A stretch of DNA of 40,381 nt from positions 1 to 40,381 of the forward strand of contig DAIDMD010000033.1 in assembly GCA_027449165.1 (NCBI GenBank), written 5' to 3'. Shown here piece after piece: positions 19,505 to 28,716 of this stretch (position 1 is the stretch's first letter; each line of letters begins with the position of its first letter). Source of the stretch: Acidiferrobacter sp. GTDB taxonomy: Bacteria; Pseudomonadota; Gammaproteobacteria; Acidiferrobacterales; Acidiferrobacteraceae. Below the pieces are notes generated by a model. That model did no database searches and was not told the DNA's origin. It worked only from the letters and a program-made list of their open reading frames with translations. Position numbers and translations under genes: made by a program.

Positions 19505-20419
19505 TTAGCGCGCCCCCTTGGCGGCGATCTCCTCAAGCCTGCGGGCCCGGATGATCTGGCCGTTCAGGCCAGCCTCTTTGGCGCTTCCGCCATAAGCCAC
19601 CGTCATGAGCTGGCTATAGTAAGTCACGGGAATATTGAATTTGGTCCCGTAGCGCTTATTGATCTGGCCCTGGTAGACCTCGACGTTCATCTGACATACC
19701 GGGCAAGGCGTCACGATCATGTCGGCGCCGTGATCGTAGGCCGATTCGATGATTTTCTTAATCTGGGCCTGACTCTTCTCCGGCTCGGAAAACGCCAACG
19801 CCCCGCCGCAGCAGGTGACCTTTTGATCGTATTTCTCGACCGGCTCGCCGCCCACGATCTCGATGAGCCGGTCGAGGTATTTCGGGTTCTCGAACGACTC
19901 CCCGGCGATCCCGAACGGGCGATTCGTCTGGCACCCCACATAACCCGCGAACTTGATGCCCTCCAGGGGCTTGACGACCGGCTTCTTCAGCTCGTCGTAG
20001 CCCAGGTCCTCGATCAGGACCTCCACCATGTGGCGGACCTCCTGCTCGCCCTTGTACTGAAGGTTCATGCCGGCCTCCCGCAGGGCCTCGTTGGTCTCGG
20101 CGAGCAGGTCGGCGTCATGGGCGAGCCGGTCCTTGGTCTCCTTCGCCCCGAGCCAGCAGGCGGCGCAGGTGGCGACCACGTCCTGGCCCTTGTTTGCCTG
20201 TTCGGAGATGGCGAGGTTGCGCGCGTTCATGACGTGGCGCGGCAATTCGCCGCCCTCGGCGTACCCGATGGAGGCGCCGCAGCAGTTCCAATCGGGGATC
20301 TCGTTCAGCTTCACATCGAGCTTCTTGCACATCGCCTCGACCGACACCATGTAATTGGACGCGGATGTCAGCCGCTCGGACGAGCAGCCCGGATAGAAAG
20401 AATATTCTTTTCTGGCCAT
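19505..20419 (-). CDS. hdrB: Heterodisulfide reductase subunit B-like protein, two CCG domains
   Basis: YSFYPGCSSE...DWNCCGASIGY...ATCAACWLG and YVGCQTNRPF...VTCCGGALAF...VTPCPVCQMN. Confidence 0.92.
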   Translation of the reverse strand: MARKEYSFYPGCSSERLTSASNYMVSVEAMCKKLDVKLNEIPDWNCCGASIGYAEGGELPRHVMNARNLAISEQANKGQDVVATCAACWLGAKETKDRLAHDADLLAETNEALREAGMNLQYKGEQEVRHMVEVLIEDLGYDELKKPVVKPLEGIKFAGYVGCQTNRPFGIAGESFENPKYLDRLIEIVGGEPVEKYDQKVTCCGGALAFSEPEKSQAQIKKIIESAYDHGADMIVTPCPVCQMNVEVYQGQINKRYGTKFNIPVTYYSQLMTVAYGGSAKEAGLNGQIIRARRLEEIAAKGAR

Positions 20420-20430
20420 ATCGATACCCC

Positions 20431-21054
20431 TTAGGCGGCAAAGCCCTTGCGTCGATCCTCGATCTCCCGCGCCTTCTTCAGCATCCGATGGATGCCCTTC
20501 TTGTCCTTACAACCCTTGTGGCTCACGAAACCAAAGGGGTTCAGGCGCCGGGTCTTCAGCATCCCGAGCCCGATGTCCTTCATGGCCCACGCCCGGGCGA
20601 TGCCGGTCTTGAACCCGTCCATGAAATAGAGCCCCACCGACAGCTCGATCTCGTTTACGCGCCCGGACTTCGTGAGGTTGTTCCAGAACATCTTCGCGAA
20701 GCGCCTGGTGGGATTCATCTTGGGGGCAAGCCCAAGCCTGTGGGCATAGTTGGCGAGCCCGTGCATGATATGGGTGATCGGCAGCTCGCGCGGACAGCGG
20801 ACGATGCAGTTGTAGCAGGACGTGCACATCCACATCGACTCGCTCTTCAAGACCTCTTCGCGGCGCCCCGCGCGGATCATCATGAAGATCTCCTGCGGCG
20901 GGTGTTCCCAGGCAGGGCCGAGCGGGCAGGAGCCCGAGCACACCCCGCACTGCATGCACATCTTGACCCACTGGCCTTCCTCGACGTTCGCCTCGACCTC
21001 CTTAAGGAAGTTGTTGCGATACTGCTCCGCCATTGCCGTGTTGATATCGCCCAC
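20431..21054 (-). CDS. hdrC: Heterodisulfide reductase subunit C-like 2x[4Fe-4S] protein
   Basis: CMQCGVCSGSCPLGPAW and CTSCYNCIVRCPRELP; no long hydrophobic heme-b domain. Confidence 0.9.
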   Translation of the reverse strand: MGDINTAMAEQYRNNFLKEVEANVEEGQWVKMCMQCGVCSGSCPLGPAWEHPPQEIFMMIRAGRREEVLKSESMWMCTSCYNCIVRCPRELPITHIMHGLANYAHRLGLAPKMNPTRRFAKMFWNNLTKSGRVNEIELSVGLYFMDGFKTGIARAWAMKDIGLGMLKTRRLNPFGFVSHKGCKDKKGIHRMLKKAREIEDRRKGFAA

Positions 21055-21063
21055 TGTGGCCTC

Positions 21064-23301
21064 CTAGAAACCCTTGAACGGACTCATGCCGATTTCCTGG
21101 ATCTTGGCGGCGTAGTCGTTGATGAGCTCCGGGACCCTCGCGATGGCGGCGATGGCCACCTCGAGCAATCGGACCCGATCTTTCTCCAGGTTCAAATTCT
21201 TCAAAGTGTCGTCGATCTTGCTCATACGGTAGTTCGCGAGCTCCGAGCCTTTCACGAAATGGCACTGATACTCGTCGCCGTGCCGGCAACCCATCAGCAT
21301 CACCCCGTCGTAGCCGCTGTTCAAGGCATCCGTGATCCAGATCATGTTCACCGAGCCGAGACAGCGGACCGGCACGGGGCGGATGAACGCGCTCGACGTG
21401 TGCCCGGAGACGCCGGCCATGTCGAGCGCCGGATAGGCGTCGTTCTCGCAGGCCAGCAGCAGGATGCGCGGCTTTTCCGAAAACTCGTCCGGGACATCGA
21501 TGGCCTTGATCTGCGAGCCCACGCTGTCGACCGAGTAGTTCTCGAACGAGATGACGCGCACCGGGCATGCGCCCATGCAGGTCCCGCAGCGGCGGCAGCG
21601 CCCTTCGTTGAACTGCGGATAGCGCTGCTCGTCTTCGTCGATCGCCCCGAACGGGCACTCGACCGTGCAGCGCTTGCACTGCGTGCACCCCTCGCGGCGG
21701 AAGGTGGGGAAGCTCAAATCGCCCGACCGCGGATGGGCGGCGCGCCCGAGACCGGCGTTTTCCACCGCCTGGATGGCCTTCAGGGCCGCCCCGGTCGCAT
21801 CCTCCACGGCCTGGGCGATGTCCATGGGCCGGCGCACGGGGCCCGCCGCATAAATGCCGGTCCGCCGGGTTTCGTACGGGAAGCAGATGAAGTGCGAGTC
21901 CGTAAAGCCATATTTCAGCTGGGGGATGTCCGGGCCCTGGCGGTAGGTGAGATTCAGGACCGACACCGCGTGCTCGCCGGCCTTCACGCCGTCGATGTCC
22001 TGGGCATCGGGCGGAATGTCGATATTGACGCCCGAGTTCGGGACCTGGCCCGTGGCCAGAACGACCAGATCCACGCCGCTCATGGTCGCCGCCTTGTCGT
22101 CTAGGATCAGGTCGTGGAAATGGACGGTCGCCGACCCGTTGCCGCCGACCTCGACCTGGGCGACCTTGCCCTTGGTGAAGATCACGCCCTTTCTTTGGGC
22201 GCTGCGGTAGAAGTCCTCGCCGTTGCCCGGCGTACGCAGGTCGGTGTAGATGATCGCCGTATCGATGTCGGGATTCTGCTCCTTGAAGTACATCGCCTGC
22301 TTCATGCTGGTGTTGCAGCAGTGGCCGGAGCAATACTTGAGATGGGTACCGGTTGCGTCGCGCTGGCCCGCGCACTGGACGAAAACGACGCTCTTGATCT
22401 CTTTGCCGTCCGAGGGGCGGCGCATGGGCTCGCCCCTGGCCGCGGCAGCGCGCGCCAGGGCCTCGAGACCGGCCTGATCGACGACGTTTTGGCTCTTGCC
22501 GTAGCCGAACTCCGGGAGCTTGGTCGCGTCATACGGGGTAAACCCGCTCGCCATGACGATCGCGCCCACGTTCTCGGTCTTTGTGCCGCCGCTTTCGGCG
22601 GTGATATCGACACTGAACCGTCCGGGGGCGCCACTCGTGCGCGTCGTCGTGGAATTGAGAAACACCGTGATGCGCGGATCCTGCGTGACCGCCGCGGCCA
22701 TCGCCTCGACACCCGTCGCCTGCGGATCGGCGAACGGTTCGCGGTACGGAATTCGCTTGTGGAGCTTGGCCATATAGCCGCCGAGCGTCCCGGCCTTCTC
22801 CACCAGCAGCACCTCGTAGCCGGCGCGCGCCGCCTCGAGGGCCGCGGTCATCCCGGTGACGCCGCCGCCCACCACCAGGATGCGCTTGTTGGTCCCATGC
22901 TCAGGGTTGGGCGTCGGCGCGACGATCTTTTTGGCCTCGGCGCAGCCCATGCGCATATAGTCGGCGGCCATCTCCTGGGTCAGTTCGCGCGCCTCTTCAG
23001 CGGCCGGCTGCGACCATATGACCTGCTCGCGCAGGTTCACGCGCGACACCGCCACGTTCTCGAAGTTGAAGGCCTCGGCCTTGGCCCGGCGCGAGCACGC
23101 GCCGATCACCACCCGGTTCACGCCCTCGTCGATGTCCTTCTGGATCATCGCCACGCCCTGGCTGTTGCACAGAAATTCGTGCTCGCGCACCACGTGCGCC
23201 TTGCCCTCCTTCTGCGCGACCAAGGTCAGCGCCTTGGTATCCAGACGCTCCCCAAGGCCGCAGCCCTGGCATACATAGGCGCCGATCTTCATATCCGCCA
23301 T
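21064..23301 (-). CDS. qmoB: QmoB-like protein (HdrA-like flavoprotein, ferredoxin motifs, MvhD-like C terminus)
   Basis: 745 aa: ILVVGGGVTGMTAALEAARAGYEVLLVEK, TQCKRCTVECPFGAID...CRRCGTCMGACPVRVISF, C-terminal ILLLACENDAYPALD...PVRCLGSVNMIWITDALNSGYDGVMLMGCRHGDEYQCHF. Confidence 0.88.
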   Translation of the reverse strand: MADMKIGAYVCQGCGLGERLDTKALTLVAQKEGKAHVVREHEFLCNSQGVAMIQKDIDEGVNRVVIGACSRRAKAEAFNFENVAVSRVNLREQVIWSQPAAEEARELTQEMAADYMRMGCAEAKKIVAPTPNPEHGTNKRILVVGGGVTGMTAALEAARAGYEVLLVEKAGTLGGYMAKLHKRIPYREPFADPQATGVEAMAAAVTQDPRITVFLNSTTTRTSGAPGRFSVDITAESGGTKTENVGAIVMASGFTPYDATKLPEFGYGKSQNVVDQAGLEALARAAAARGEPMRRPSDGKEIKSVVFVQCAGQRDATGTHLKYCSGHCCNTSMKQAMYFKEQNPDIDTAIIYTDLRTPGNGEDFYRSAQRKGVIFTKGKVAQVEVGGNGSATVHFHDLILDDKAATMSGVDLVVLATGQVPNSGVNIDIPPDAQDIDGVKAGEHAVSVLNLTYRQGPDIPQLKYGFTDSHFICFPYETRRTGIYAAGPVRRPMDIAQAVEDATGAALKAIQAVENAGLGRAAHPRSGDLSFPTFRREGCTQCKRCTVECPFGAIDEDEQRYPQFNEGRCRRCGTCMGACPVRVISFENYSVDSVGSQIKAIDVPDEFSEKPRILLLACENDAYPALDMAGVSGHTSSAFIRPVPVRCLGSVNMIWITDALNSGYDGVMLMGCRHGDEYQCHFVKGSELANYRMSKIDDTLKNLNLEKDRVRLLEVAIAAIARVPELINDYAAKIQEIGMSPFKGF

Positions 23302-23304
23302 GTC

Positions 23305-24588
23305 CTAACCCTCCGCCTTCGCCACGCGGTTCACCACCTGCACCGCGCGCAGGACGCTCGCTGTGGCACTCTGCACCGACCGGTTCACGTCGAGCGCGTT
23401 GGCCGCGCATCCGGCGCCGAATATGCCGCCGTCGGTCGGGCCCAACTCGATAAAACCGCTCGCATCGACCGCGACGCCGGCGATCGCCTTCGCGTCCGCA
23501 CTCGGCTCCATGCCGACTGCGAGCACGCACAGGTCGTGGCGATTGTCGTAGCGGTGGTAACCCTCGGTATCGACGCCATGCAGAATGACATCGCCCGTCG
23601 CCTCGTCCTCCGTGATGTTGGCGACCTTGGATTTCACGAAGCGGACCGTGGAATCGGCCTGCACCTTCTGATAGAAGTCCTCGAACCGGTCGATGGCGCG
23701 GATATCGATGTAATAGATGGTCGATTGCGCCTCGTCGCCGAAGCGTTCGCGCATATAGGTCGTCTGCTTGAGCGACGCCATGCAGCAGATACGCGAGCAG
23801 TGCTTGAGATGGTTGCGATCGCGCGACCCGGCGCACTGGATAAAGGCGACGTTCTTGGCCTCCTTGCCGTCCGATGGGCGAACGATGCGGCCCCCCGTGG
23901 GACCGCGCGGGTCCGACAGGCGCTCGAACTCGACGCTCGTGATGACGTTATCGAAGCGATCATAGCCGTAAGGCTGGATCTTGGCGGCATCATAGGGACG
24001 CCACCCGGTCGCCCACACCACCGCGCCGGCGGTCAAGGTGATCGTCTCGGGCTTCATGTCGAGATCGACGGCGCCGTACTTGCACGCCTCCCTGGCCTTC
24101 TCGGCGTCGGGGGTCCCGAGGATGGACGGGTCGATGACGTAGCGCTGCGGATAAGCCATGAGCGACGGCAGATAGGCGGCCTTCATGCGGCTCATGCCGT
24201 AATCGAAGGGGTTGGGGATCTCGGTGGCGACCGCCTCGCCGCAGGCGCCGCAGGCGGTGCAGTGGTCGTTTACGTAGCGCGGGTGGAGGGTGACCGAGAT
24301 CTTGTAGTCGCCGGCGCGGCCCTCCACCTTGAGGACCTCGGCCTGGGTGAGGACCCGGATGCGTTTGTTGCCGCGCAACCGGCGGAGATTGATCTCCATG
24401 CCGCAGGTCGGGTGGCATAGTTTCGGGAAATATTTATAGAGCTGATTGACGCGACCCCCTAGCGAGGGCGCCCGTTCGAGCAGGATGACGTTCTTCCCGG
24501 TCTCGGCGGCCTCGACGGCCGCGGTCATGCCGCTTATGCCGCCGCCGACCACCACGATGGTCTCATGTGTTGCGACTACGTCCGCCAT
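23305..24588 (-). CDS. qmoA: QmoA-like protein (HdrA-like flavoprotein)
   Basis: IVVVGGGISGMTAAVEAAETGKNVILLERAPSLGGRVNQLYKYFPKLCHPTCGMEINLRRL...CTACGACGEAVATEIPNPFDYGMSRMKAAYLP; precedes qmoB. Confidence 0.88.
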   Translation of the reverse strand: MADVVATHETIVVVGGGISGMTAAVEAAETGKNVILLERAPSLGGRVNQLYKYFPKLCHPTCGMEINLRRLRGNKRIRVLTQAEVLKVEGRAGDYKISVTLHPRYVNDHCTACGACGEAVATEIPNPFDYGMSRMKAAYLPSLMAYPQRYVIDPSILGTPDAEKAREACKYGAVDLDMKPETITLTAGAVVWATGWRPYDAAKIQPYGYDRFDNVITSVEFERLSDPRGPTGGRIVRPSDGKEAKNVAFIQCAGSRDRNHLKHCSRICCMASLKQTTYMRERFGDEAQSTIYYIDIRAIDRFEDFYQKVQADSTVRFVKSKVANITEDEATGDVILHGVDTEGYHRYDNRHDLCVLAVGMEPSADAKAIAGVAVDASGFIELGPTDGGIFGAGCAANALDVNRSVQSATASVLRAVQVVNRVAKAEG

Positions 24589-24896: not shown

Positions 24897-25715
24897 GTGC
24901 CCGTGAAACCAGGCGTTGTGAGAACCGAGGCGCTCCTCATCACGAAGGAGCCGTATTACGAACCGCAAGGCGACGAGATCCTCTTGTTCGAGAGCGCCTA
25001 CCGCAACCGGATCCCGGTCCTGCTGAAGGGCCCCACGGGCTGCGGAAAGACGCGCTTCATGGAACATATGGCCTGGCGGCTTAGGCGCCCGCTCGTGACC
25101 GTCTCCTGCCACGATGATCTCACCGCCTCCGATCTCGTGGGACGTTATCTGATAACCGCGGGCGACACCGCGTGGGTCGACGGGCCGCTGGCGCACGCGG
25201 TCAGGGTCGGGGGCATCTGCTACCTCGACGAAATCGTCGAGGCCCGCAAGGACACGACGGTGGTAATCCATCCGCTCGCCGACGACCGGCGGGTCTTGCC
25301 CATCGAGAAGACCGGGGAGGTCTTGCGCGCGCCGCCCGAATTCGCGTTGGCGATCTCCTATAATCCCGGCTACCAGAGCGTCCTGAAGGACCTGAAGCAG
25401 AGCACCCGCCAGCGCTTCGTGGCCCTCGAATTCGATTACCCGCCGGCCGACCTCGAGCAACGGATAGTCGACCGCGAAAGCGGGATCGGGGCGGAGACCG
25501 CCGCGAAGCTCGTCCGGTTCGCGGCGATGACGCGCAACCTGAAGGGCAGCGGCCTCGAGGAGGGCGCGAGCACCCGGCTCCTCGTGCACGCCGCCAAGCT
25601 CATGGTCTCGGGCATAAGCCCGGTGGCCGCGTGCCGGGGCGCCGTCGCCCAGGCGCTCACCGACGACCCGGAGATGGTCGCGGCCATCAACGAGCTCAGC
25701 GCCTCGCTCTTTTAG
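24897..25715 (+). CDS. MoxR-type AAA+ ATPase, CbbQ/NirQ/NorQ family
   Basis: [26 protein letters not shown]...[17 protein letters not shown]...[37 protein letters not shown]...[12 protein letters not shown]. Start may be GTG at 24903. Confidence 0.92.
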
Positions 25716-25968: not shown

Positions 25969-28107
25969 ATGAAGGATGTGACCGAATCGCGGGATGGGTG
26001 GACACGACAGATGACCGACCTTAAGCCCTGGACCGCCCCCGAGTGGGAGGACTGGCTGGACGAGGAGCTCGACGCGGCGCTTTCGCTGCGGCGCACGAGC
26101 CGGCCGGCGGCCATGGCGCTCGCCACGCTCGGCCGCGACCGGCAGGACTTTGCCCGCCACTGGATCGCCATCGTCGCCAAGACCAACCCCGAGCTCGCGT
26201 TTCATTTCGCCAACCGCGCGGCCGAGGGCTTGAGGCGCATGGCCCGGGACGACGCCGAGGCCTGGATCATCCAGGCCATGGACGTCTACGACAAGATGGG
26301 GCTCTACCCGGCGATCGCGGCGTTGGGCGACATCGAGACCTTTGCCGCGGCGCGCGAGCAACGTTCGCGGGCCGCGGCCCTCGAACAAGTCGGCCCGGTT
26401 CTCGAACTCTTCCTGCAAGGGCTTTCCGGAAGGCGGCTTAAACTCGAGGCCGGGGACCGTACGTTCAACGACACCGCGCGCATCCATCTCCCCGCGTCGC
26501 TTGCGCTGCTGCCGACCCGCGAGGCGAACCTGCGTCTTTATAAGGTCACGGCCGCCCATTTGTGGGCGCAGACCCGGTTCGGGACCTTCCCGGGCAACGA
26601 CCCGGAGCGGCTTGTGAATCGCTGCCACGCCTTCCCGGACGCCACCTATGCGTGCGGTCTCTTCCACGCCCTGGAGACCATCCGCCTGGACGCCTGCCTG
26701 GCCCGCGAGCTCCCGGGGCTGCACCGCGAGCTGCGCACCCTCCAGGACCGGCCGCCGGCACCCGCATCGTGGGCACCCTGGGTGGCCCGGCTCGAGGCCG
26801 CGGACGCGACCGTGGACGACTCCTACGAGGCGCTGGCCGCCCTTTACGGCGAGCCCCTCCCGGCACCGCACCTCTATCAAGGAACGCTCGACGCGGCGGC
26901 GGTCGCGGCGGCGCTTAAAAGCCGCCTGGAGGAGGAGCGCACGGCTTTGCAAAACGCGCTCAAGGCGCTCCTGGGCGACAAGCCGCCGCAGACCGCCGCG
27001 CCGGAGGAGCGGCGATTCACGGTCCACGACAAGGATGCCGGCCGCAACGACCCGACCTTGCTGCTCGACGGCCAGCCCCTGGCCGTGCCCCCGGACGTGC
27101 ACGCCCTGATGCGGTCGATTGCGCAGGACCTGGGCGAGATCCCCGACGAATATCTCGTGCCGGCCGGCGACGGGGCCTACGCCGCGGAGAGCGGGAAGAA
27201 GCCCGAGGATGTCTGGAAAGGGACCTACCACGAGGAGGGCGCGTTTCTCTACAACGAGTGGGACTACAAGCGTCAGCATTACCGCAAAGACTGGTGCGTC
27301 CTGCGGGAGCTGGACGTCCATCCCGCAGACGAGCCGTTCGTGGCCGAGACCTTGCGCAAATACGCCGGCCTTGCATCGCGCCTGCGCAAGACCTTCGAGG
27401 CGCTGCGCGGGGAGAACGCGACCCAGAGGCGCCAGAAGCATGGCGATGACGTCGATTTCGACGCGCTGGTCGAAGGCTTCGCGGACCTGCGCTCGGGCCG
27501 CGAGCTGCCCGACGGGCTCTTCCTGCGCAATAGCCGCTTCGCGCGCAATATCGCCGTGATGTTCATGGTCGACATGAGCGGCTCGACCAAGGGCTGGATC
27601 AACGACGCCGAGCGCGAGTCTCTGGTTCTGCTCTGCGAGGCCCTGGAGATCCTCGGCGACCGCTACGCCATTTACGGGTTTTCGGGGATTACGCGCAAGC
27701 GCTGCGAGATGTACCGCGTGAAGCGATTCGAGGACCGCTACGACGACACGGTCCGCGCCCGCATAACCGGCATAAAGCCCCGGGACTATACGCGGATGGG
27801 GGTCGCGATCCGCCACCTCTGCGGCATCCTAAATGGCGTCGAGGCGCGCACCAAGCTGCTCGTGACCTTGTCCGACGGCAAGCCCGACGACTACGACGGC
27901 TACCGGGGCGAGTACGGCATCGAGGACACGCGCCAGGCGCTGCTCGAGGCCAAGCGTGACGGCATCCATGCCTTTTGCATCACGATCGACACCGACGCCC
28001 GCGACTACCTCCCCCACATGTACGGGGCCGTGAACTACGCCCAGATAGACGACGTCCGCAAACTCCCCCTGAAGATCTCGGACATCTACCGCCATCTCAC
28101 CAGTTGA
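25969..28107 (+). CDS. VWA-domain protein, CbbO/NorD family
   Basis: C-terminal VWA with MIDAS FMVDMSGSTKGWINDAERESLVLLCEALEILGDRYAIYGFSG and VTLSDGKPDDYDGYRGEYGIEDTRQALLEAKRDGIHAFCITID. Start may be 26011. Confidence 0.9.
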   Translation: MKDVTESRDGWTRQMTDLKPWTAPEWEDWLDEELDAALSLRRTSRPAAMALATLGRDRQDFARHWIAIVAKTNPELAFHFANRAAEGLRRMARDDAEAWIIQAMDVYDKMGLYPAIAALGDIETFAAAREQRSRAAALEQVGPVLELFLQGLSGRRLKLEAGDRTFNDTARIHLPASLALLPTREANLRLYKVTAAHLWAQTRFGTFPGNDPERLVNRCHAFPDATYACGLFHALETIRLDACLARELPGLHRELRTLQDRPPAPASWAPWVARLEAADATVDDSYEALAALYGEPLPAPHLYQGTLDAAAVAAALKSRLEEERTALQNALKALLGDKPPQTAAPEERRFTVHDKDAGRNDPTLLLDGQPLAVPPDVHALMRSIAQDLGEIPDEYLVPAGDGAYAAESGKKPEDVWKGTYHEEGAFLYNEWDYKRQHYRKDWCVLRELDVHPADEPFVAETLRKYAGLASRLRKTFEALRGENATQRRQKHGDDVDFDALVEGFADLRSGRELPDGLFLRNSRFARNIAVMFMVDMSGSTKGWINDAERESLVLLCEALEILGDRYAIYGFSGITRKRCEMYRVKRFEDRYDDTVRARITGIKPRDYTRMGVAIRHLCGILNGVEARTKLLVTLSDGKPDDYDGYRGEYGIEDTRQALLEAKRDGIHAFCITIDTDARDYLPHMYGAVNYAQIDDVRKLPLKISDIYRHLTS

Positions 28108-28389
28108 GGCGTTCAGCAGTTCCCGATATGGCGATAACCGGGGAGGGCCTGGCCCAAAGGGGCGGTCTCATGCCAGGGAGCAAGAGCAGAGCGCGTTTTG
28201 CCCTGCACGGTGATGTTCAACAAACGCCCATCTCGATATACGAATTTCCAAACTATCTCCGCGATTACAAGCGGTGCCGCCCCTCGCATCGGGGATTGCT
28301 GTGAGGCATTCGGACCGATGGCGCCCGGCCCTCGCGGGGCGTAACATGGTCGGGCATTCCAAATTGTTGTCATGCTGGAGGTGTCGACG

Positions 28390-28716
28390 ATGAGCACGCC
28401 ATCCAAAGTGTCCCGCCGGAATTGGATCAAGGCCGTGGCAACGGCCGTCTCGGGCATAGCCGCGCTACCGCTCCTGGGCCGGACCGCCCGGGCCGCGCCC
28501 GCGAAAGTGACGAAGGCCATTGCCCATTACCAGGACCACCCCGACGGCCCCAAGATGTGCGGCCGGTGCCGATTCTTTATTCCGCCGGGGGGCGAGGCTG
28601 GACACGGCATGATGGGCGGCGCCATGGGCCCCGGCATGATGCACGAAGGACTCTGCCAGGTGGTCCAGGGGCATGTGAGCCCGCGAGGCTATTGCCTCCT
28701 GTATCAACCCATCTGA
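28390..28716 (+). CDS. High-potential iron-sulfur protein (HiPIP) with Met/His-rich insertion
   Basis: Tat-like leader SRRNWIKAVATAVSGIAALPLLGRTARA; AIAHYQDHPDGPKMCGRCRFFIPP...CQVVQGHVSPRGYCLLYQPI; GGAGG upstream of ATG. Confidence 0.87.
   Translation: MSTPSKVSRRNWIKAVATAVSGIAALPLLGRTARAAPAKVTKAIAHYQDHPDGPKMCGRCRFFIPPGGEAGHGMMGGAMGPGMMHEGLCQVVQGHVSPRGYCLLYQPI

Follow-up and report, generated by a model that had tools for sequence, protein, structure and literature searches.

High-potential iron-sulfur proteins (HiPIPs) are one-electron carriers in respiration and photosynthesis. The classical members (PDB 3H31 and 1ISU; Pfam PF01355) have a four-cysteine [4Fe-4S] pattern. Iro, the iron oxidase of Acidithiobacillus ferrooxidans, is a small HiPIP exported through the Tat pathway in an acidophile host, and its cysteines follow the pattern C-x2-C ... 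C-x12-C. PioC of Rhodopseudomonas palustris (PDB 6XYV) belongs to the pio iron-oxidation operon. In the literature searched, outside of which most subscription journals fall, no HiPIP with a Met-rich loop is described. High-potential iron-sulfur proteins and copper efflux are joined there, in the portions of the texts available, by passing mentions only.

The window is a 40,381-nucleotide stretch of DNA from Acidiferrobacter sp. (assembly GCA_027449165.1, contig DAIDMD010000033.1), and it encodes a HiPIP that resembles these proteins and also differs from them. The likeness to Iro covers size, Tat export, cysteine pattern and acidophile host. PioC is the best solved relative and has in common with the window protein the motif YQ..P.G.K.C..CR.F.P around the first two cysteines. 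The classical HiPIPs align with it by profile across the four-cysteine pattern. All three differ from it in the gap between the second and third cysteines, which is short in Iro and PioC and shorter in the classical proteins than the 28 residues of the window protein. Iro has no Met insert in this gap, and the classical HiPIPs have no Met cluster.

Table 1. Positions of the HiPIP gene, its parts and its upstream neighbors in the window.
Feature	Position	Strand	Basis
cbbQ-type AAA ATPase gene, two genes upstream of the HiPIP gene	24897-25715	+	Pfam CbbQ_C, 5e-30
Presumed cbbO-like gene, directly upstream of the HiPIP gene	25969-28107	+	Position after cbbQ
Ribosome-binding site GGAGG, 8 nt before ATG 28390	28377-28381	+	Sequence
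Met-loop HiPIP gene, 108 amino acids	28390-28716	+	Open reading frame; Iro model, 1.6e-12; PDB PioC and HiPIP matches
Predicted Tat signal peptide, SRRNWIK ... TARA, with a putative cleavage point	28390-28494	+	Sequence; RR invariant in alignment; Tat models
First and second Cys of the cluster site, CGRC (CGMC in most relatives)	28558-28569	+	Invariant in alignment
Inserted Gly/Met/His loop between the second and third Cys, GGEAGHGMMGGAMGPGMMHEG	28588-28650	+	Alignment; gap comparison
Invariant core of the loop, GHGMMGGAMGPGMM	28600-28641	+	Comparison of ten orthologues
Segment from the third to the fourth Cys, CQVVQGHVSPRGYC	28654-28695	+	Both Cys invariant in alignment

An in-frame ATG is also present at position 28372, upstream of the ATG in Table 1, and the placement of the GGAGG sequence makes the latter the likely start. 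The twin arginines of the signal are invariant across the alignment, and Tat models match some of its members. By its sequence, the window protein is a small, Tat-exported protein, and the mature part that follows the signal is APAKVTKAIAHYQDHPDGPKMCGRCRFFIPPGGEAGHGMMGGAMGPGMMHEGLCQVVQGHVSPRGYCLLYQPI. In an alignment with 19 homologues, the cysteines C57, C60, C89 and C102 are invariant, and the aromatic positions close to them are also kept. The spacing given in the first-pass annotation, C-x2-C-x28-C-x12-C, is exact. The four cysteines are predicted to hold a high-potential [4Fe-4S]3+/2+ cluster.

The kinship with HiPIPs is supported by several searches. The NCBIfam Iro model (NF041615) matches all 19 of the diverse members of the alignment and scores the window protein at 47.6 bits. 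This score is under the curated cut-off of 100, and the window protein is therefore not an Iro equivalog. A single-sequence search of the PDB placed PioC first (E 8.6e-5). In a profile search, PioC was matched at about 7e-8 (6.9e-8) and the HiPIPs 3H31 and 1ISU at about 1e-6, with the range extending to 3e-6. The Pfam HIPIP model PF01355 matches 4 of the 19 alignment members and does not match the window protein, in which Pfam also found no multicopper oxidase domain. An AlphaFold2 model built from 7 close sequences, those of the window and six related loci, has a mean pLDDT of 45.6, too low for the model to be of use. The identification as a HiPIP, first proposed from the sequence alone, thus stands, and these matches place the protein, as a remote member, among HiPIPs of the Iro/PioC type.

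The gap between the second and third cysteines had originally been compared to a typical length of about 16 residues. This reference holds for the photosynthetic HiPIPs, whereas the nearest plain relatives have 8 residues (Iro/PioC type) or 14. Relative to these, the 28-residue gap of the window protein has 14-20 residues added. It is outside the usual 8-16 and is a variation in length with no ligand missing. The composition of the inserted loop, with five Met and two His, is as initially described.

No other stretch of the protein is as constrained as the loop. Among ten orthologues with about 70-82% identity to the window protein, the core differs at one residue only, a His that is Arg in one orthologue, and all five Met are invariant. 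The nonsynonymous difference per site (pN) is 0.009 in the insert and 0.132 elsewhere, and the synonymous difference per site (pS) is 0.50 and 0.51, respectively. Because pS is equal inside and outside the insert and pN is low inside, the loop is kept by selection on the protein. In the insert 1 of 14 columns is variable, compared with 25 of the 53 outside it (Fisher p 0.005, a guide only since the rows are non-independent), and every other 14-column window has more than one variable column. Chance low complexity is ruled out by this pN difference at equal pS. The related proposal of a functionless low-complexity expansion that the protein tolerates draws on the repeat-like growth of GMMG units in the longer loops of relatives; given the constraint on the loop and its normal synonymous divergence, it is hardly credible. 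Separately, the first two cysteines lie in a KMCGMC motif in most of the inserted proteins, and the same region is Met-poor in the short-gap ones. These two extra Met at the cluster tend to co-occur with the loop.

The genomes searched for the insert numbered 57 in the order, 369 in the class and 399 in the phylum; with earlier searches added, they yielded 52 distinct HiPIPs of the window kind. The short-gap members, with 8, 9, 11, 12 or 14 residues and 0-1 Met in the gap, occur phylum-wide. The inserted members have gaps of 19, 27-28 or 35-39 residues with 2-9 Met and turned up in just two families of the order (f1 and f5) and in G211, one genome from a different order that comprises two genomes. 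The longer loops (8-9 Met) occur in other genera and in that one other order, and they grow by additional GMMG-like units. In a tree calculated with the loop columns removed, which has few columns and many unresolved forks, the inserted proteins still cluster (93/95; 90% of bootstrap trees). This grouping without loop data fits a single origin with later spread or transfer, and judged from these sequences the insert was probably gained once. Several independent origins are not needed given the loop-less tree, few as its columns are.

Other forms of the inserted gene are also present. A second inserted clade of the same genus (GHSNGLMMGGMKANGTMALGHC and alike; L050-L053 and L059, at about 5.7-6.4 kb) adjoins a TonB-dependent receptor gene and rimP-nusA-infB, an arrangement kept in five genomes. 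From its gene content, this neighborhood could serve iron or copper uptake. In L055 (near 2.0 kb) and L056 (6.2 kb), a shorter insert with a 19-residue gap and the sequence GMGGMC brings a fifth Cys. This insert of the cusF-linked HiPIPs is a possible Met/Cys soft-metal site. Downstream of its intact HiPIP gene, L023 has a second, partial copy of the 3' half (2721-2849), which contains some of the Met loop and resembles a broken duplication.

The gene neighborhoods of the more distant relatives point to soft metals. In L054, cusC-cusB-cusA is followed by the HiPIP gene with about 75 bp between, and the CusA of this locus scores 1104 bits to the solved CusA versus 482 to the Zn pump ZneA. Together, the pumps of L054, L056 and the window genome are CusA-like, with about 1086-1104 bits to CusA and 482-488 to ZneA. 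In L056, the order is cusCBA, cusF, a small gene (c39) and HiPIP, and on contig 16 of G030 a CusF match adjoins the HiPIP gene. L121 is from the different order, and its HiPIP gene has copZ-copA and a CueR/MerR-type gene on one flank and merT-merP-merA on the opposite flank. A mer-type promoter, TTGACTCCGTACCGCAATACGGAAGT, is positioned between HiPIP and merT and is directed toward merT. Mer genes are 4-5 kb from the HiPIP gene in L045, and a gene named from sequence alone as cation diffusion facilitator-like is 4 kb away in L044. L047 has an HME-RND pump about 1 kb from HiPIP whose metal is not assignable (350 versus 338 bits). The linkage to Hg in L121 and L045 and the pump of L047 blur the metal specificity. 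A small conserved, exported-looking protein, MEACFRAHGKLMSKPAV.NIYDCWRAHGYLM, is encoded beside the cus-linked HiPIP in L054 (6573-6767) and L056 (5747-5932), and no family match was found for it.

Counted by distinct contexts, which were grouped by the analyst after seeing the data and are small samples, metal-linked genes occur within 2.5 kb of 4 of 11 inserted contexts, compared with no more than 1 of the 26 short-gap loci (p about 0.02), and within about 6 kb of 6 of 11 versus 4 of 26 (p about 0.02). The longest loops occur in or near Cu/Ag/Hg clusters. These data also bear on the proposal of an antioxidant role, in which the Met would be sacrificed to shield the cluster from the oxidizing, acidic periplasm. 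Met clusters can scavenge oxidants and the habitat is harsh, but a shield leaves both the metal-gene linkage of the relatives and the exact positional invariance of the Met unexplained, and we regard it as very improbable. A metal-sensor role, suggested in the first-pass annotation, gained no particular support: no signaling gene accompanies the HiPIP consistently from locus to locus, and the sensor reading was rejected.

The surroundings of the window gene itself are of another kind. The gene directly upstream, which we take to be cbbO-like from its place behind cbbQ and a general resemblance, encodes a product with no match in Pfam or NCBIfam. Beside the two cbb-type genes, the region 19505-24588 of the window contains heterodisulfide-reductase-like (Hdr) genes, among them an HdrA-type protein that has ferredoxin and FlpD domains on a single chain. 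The linkage to cbbQ and the cbbO-like gene is retained in L001-L004 and L032. Elsewhere, orthologues have as neighbors either PsiE-like, EAL and sulfite reductase genes or those of a peptide ABC transporter. A search upstream of the window gene for inverted repeats with 7-bp arms, the sign of a CueR-type operator, found none. For the window gene and the orthologues closest to it, the context is uninformative on metals. In two loci, nirK, which encodes a copper nitrite reductase, is located between the cbbO-like gene and HiPIP (L043 7232-8101; L048 7263-8132). Going by this arrangement, NirK is a possible electron-transfer partner of the HiPIP in these loci.

Such non-metal contexts in the window and the main clade, the adjoining nirK genes and the occurrence of rusticyanin-like carriers in the genus are consistent with an ordinary respiratory carrier, in which an oxidase, cytochrome or nitrite reductase would dock on the flexible surface of the Gly-Met loop and metals would be irrelevant. 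Against such a carrier, the Met pattern is fixed while the neighbors change from locus to locus, all five positions retain Met and not some other hydrophobic residue, and the longest loops lie at or close to the Cu/Ag/Hg clusters. We consider this explanation unlikely.

The copper handling of the host genomes was also compared. RND pumps matching the CusA/CzcA model are present in all 25 genomes checked, and 20 of them exceed the cut-off. A pump of this family over the cut-off is found in most of the window genus (14 genomes). CusF was detected in 3 of the 25 genomes, all of the f5 genus. None was detected in the 14 genomes of the window genus or in G026, where HiPIP directly follows cusA. A strong match to Cu-oxidase_2, used as a proxy for CueO-type proteins, was obtained in 4 of 25 genomes (G012, G016, G030 and G211) and in 1 of the 14 genomes of the window genus; the rest had weak matches or none. 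The apparent absences of CusF and CueO are based on one Pfam model per family and on incomplete genomes, with the window genome 77% complete. Rusticyanin-like proteins are found in most of the window genus. These gene contents suggest that periplasmic Cu(I) in the window genus would in many cases encounter a Cus-type pump with neither CusF nor CueO present.

This pattern is relevant to a further explanation, in which the protein is a metal sponge or chaperone that is not coupled to electron transfer. Its loop would buffer Cu(I)/Ag(I) and pass it to the Cus pump in place of CusF, with the HiPIP domain as a stable, acid-proof scaffold, or the loop would shield its own cluster. The same metal-gene linkage and the lack of a detected CusF in the genus and in G026 are in keeping with it, as is the sponge-like role reported for the Met domain of CueO (PMC11840665). 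A mere scaffold, however, has no need of the four cluster cysteines and nearby aromatic residues, which are kept, and CusF and HiPIP are both present in L056 and G030. We hold the sponge or chaperone to be rather unlikely.

We give about even chances to the reading that the window protein is a HiPIP that has a docking loop for Cu(I)/Ag(I) next to its cluster and takes part in periplasmic copper handling, perhaps oxidizing Cu(I). The earlier suggestion of a soft-metal-binding loop is strengthened by the invariance of the Met and by the relatives in cus, cop and mer clusters. Cu(I) and Ag(I) are ligated by Met thioethers, which, unlike His and Cys, are unprotonated at low pH. The aqueous Cu(II)/Cu(I) couple is lower than +550 to +633 mV. 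This range is the Em of acidophile HiPIPs (PMC10879576). With the HiPIP potential above that of the couple, an oxidized HiPIP could accept an electron from Cu(I) in the loop. Met-rich sites favor Cu(I), and loss of the Met-rich domain of CueO affects its cuprous oxidase activity (PMC11840665).

The proposed mechanism would begin with an Iro/PioC-type HiPIP, exported through the Tat pathway, that acquired a Gly-Met loop in the gap from the second to the third cluster cysteine. Via its Met thioethers, the loop would bind a soft metal, chiefly Cu(I) or Ag(I). Its closeness to the cluster is argued from the order of the sequence, in which the loop sits between ligands of a high-potential [4Fe-4S] cluster. 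With less certainty, because of this position, loop-held Cu(I) might give its electron to the oxidized cluster and become the less toxic Cu(II), after which the respiratory chain would re-oxidize the carrier. In genomes with a Cus pump and without CusF, the HiPIP could also hand Cu(I) to the pump. The full version of this proposal, a copper-defense redox enzyme in which the grafted Met site oxidizes Cu(I) and sends the electron to respiration in hosts lacking CueO and CusF, is put forward tentatively, as doubtful though possible.

Acid-loving mine bacteria may thus possess an exported HiPIP rebuilt for toxic soft metals. If true, a [4Fe-4S] carrier would be tied to copper, silver or mercury defense. 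It would be an answer to the management of periplasmic Cu(I) at about pH 2 without CusF or CueO, where His and Cys are protonated. The loop is a small, separable module that could be transferred between proteins in vitro.

Two known copper proteins compare with this arrangement. CusF and SilF have an OB fold with a Trp/Met/His site. They are small periplasmic proteins that use Met ligands and are encoded behind cusCBA, as are some of the HiPIP relatives; unlike them, the window protein has no match to the CusF domain (PF11604). CueO is likewise an exported periplasmic protein and has a Met-rich insertion over an electron-accepting metal center (PMC11840665). It is a multicopper oxidase of unrelated fold and cofactor, and the likeness is one of layout and logic only. 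By this analogy, the loop of the window protein would work like the Met-rich arm of CueO over its type 1 copper, on the base of a HiPIP.
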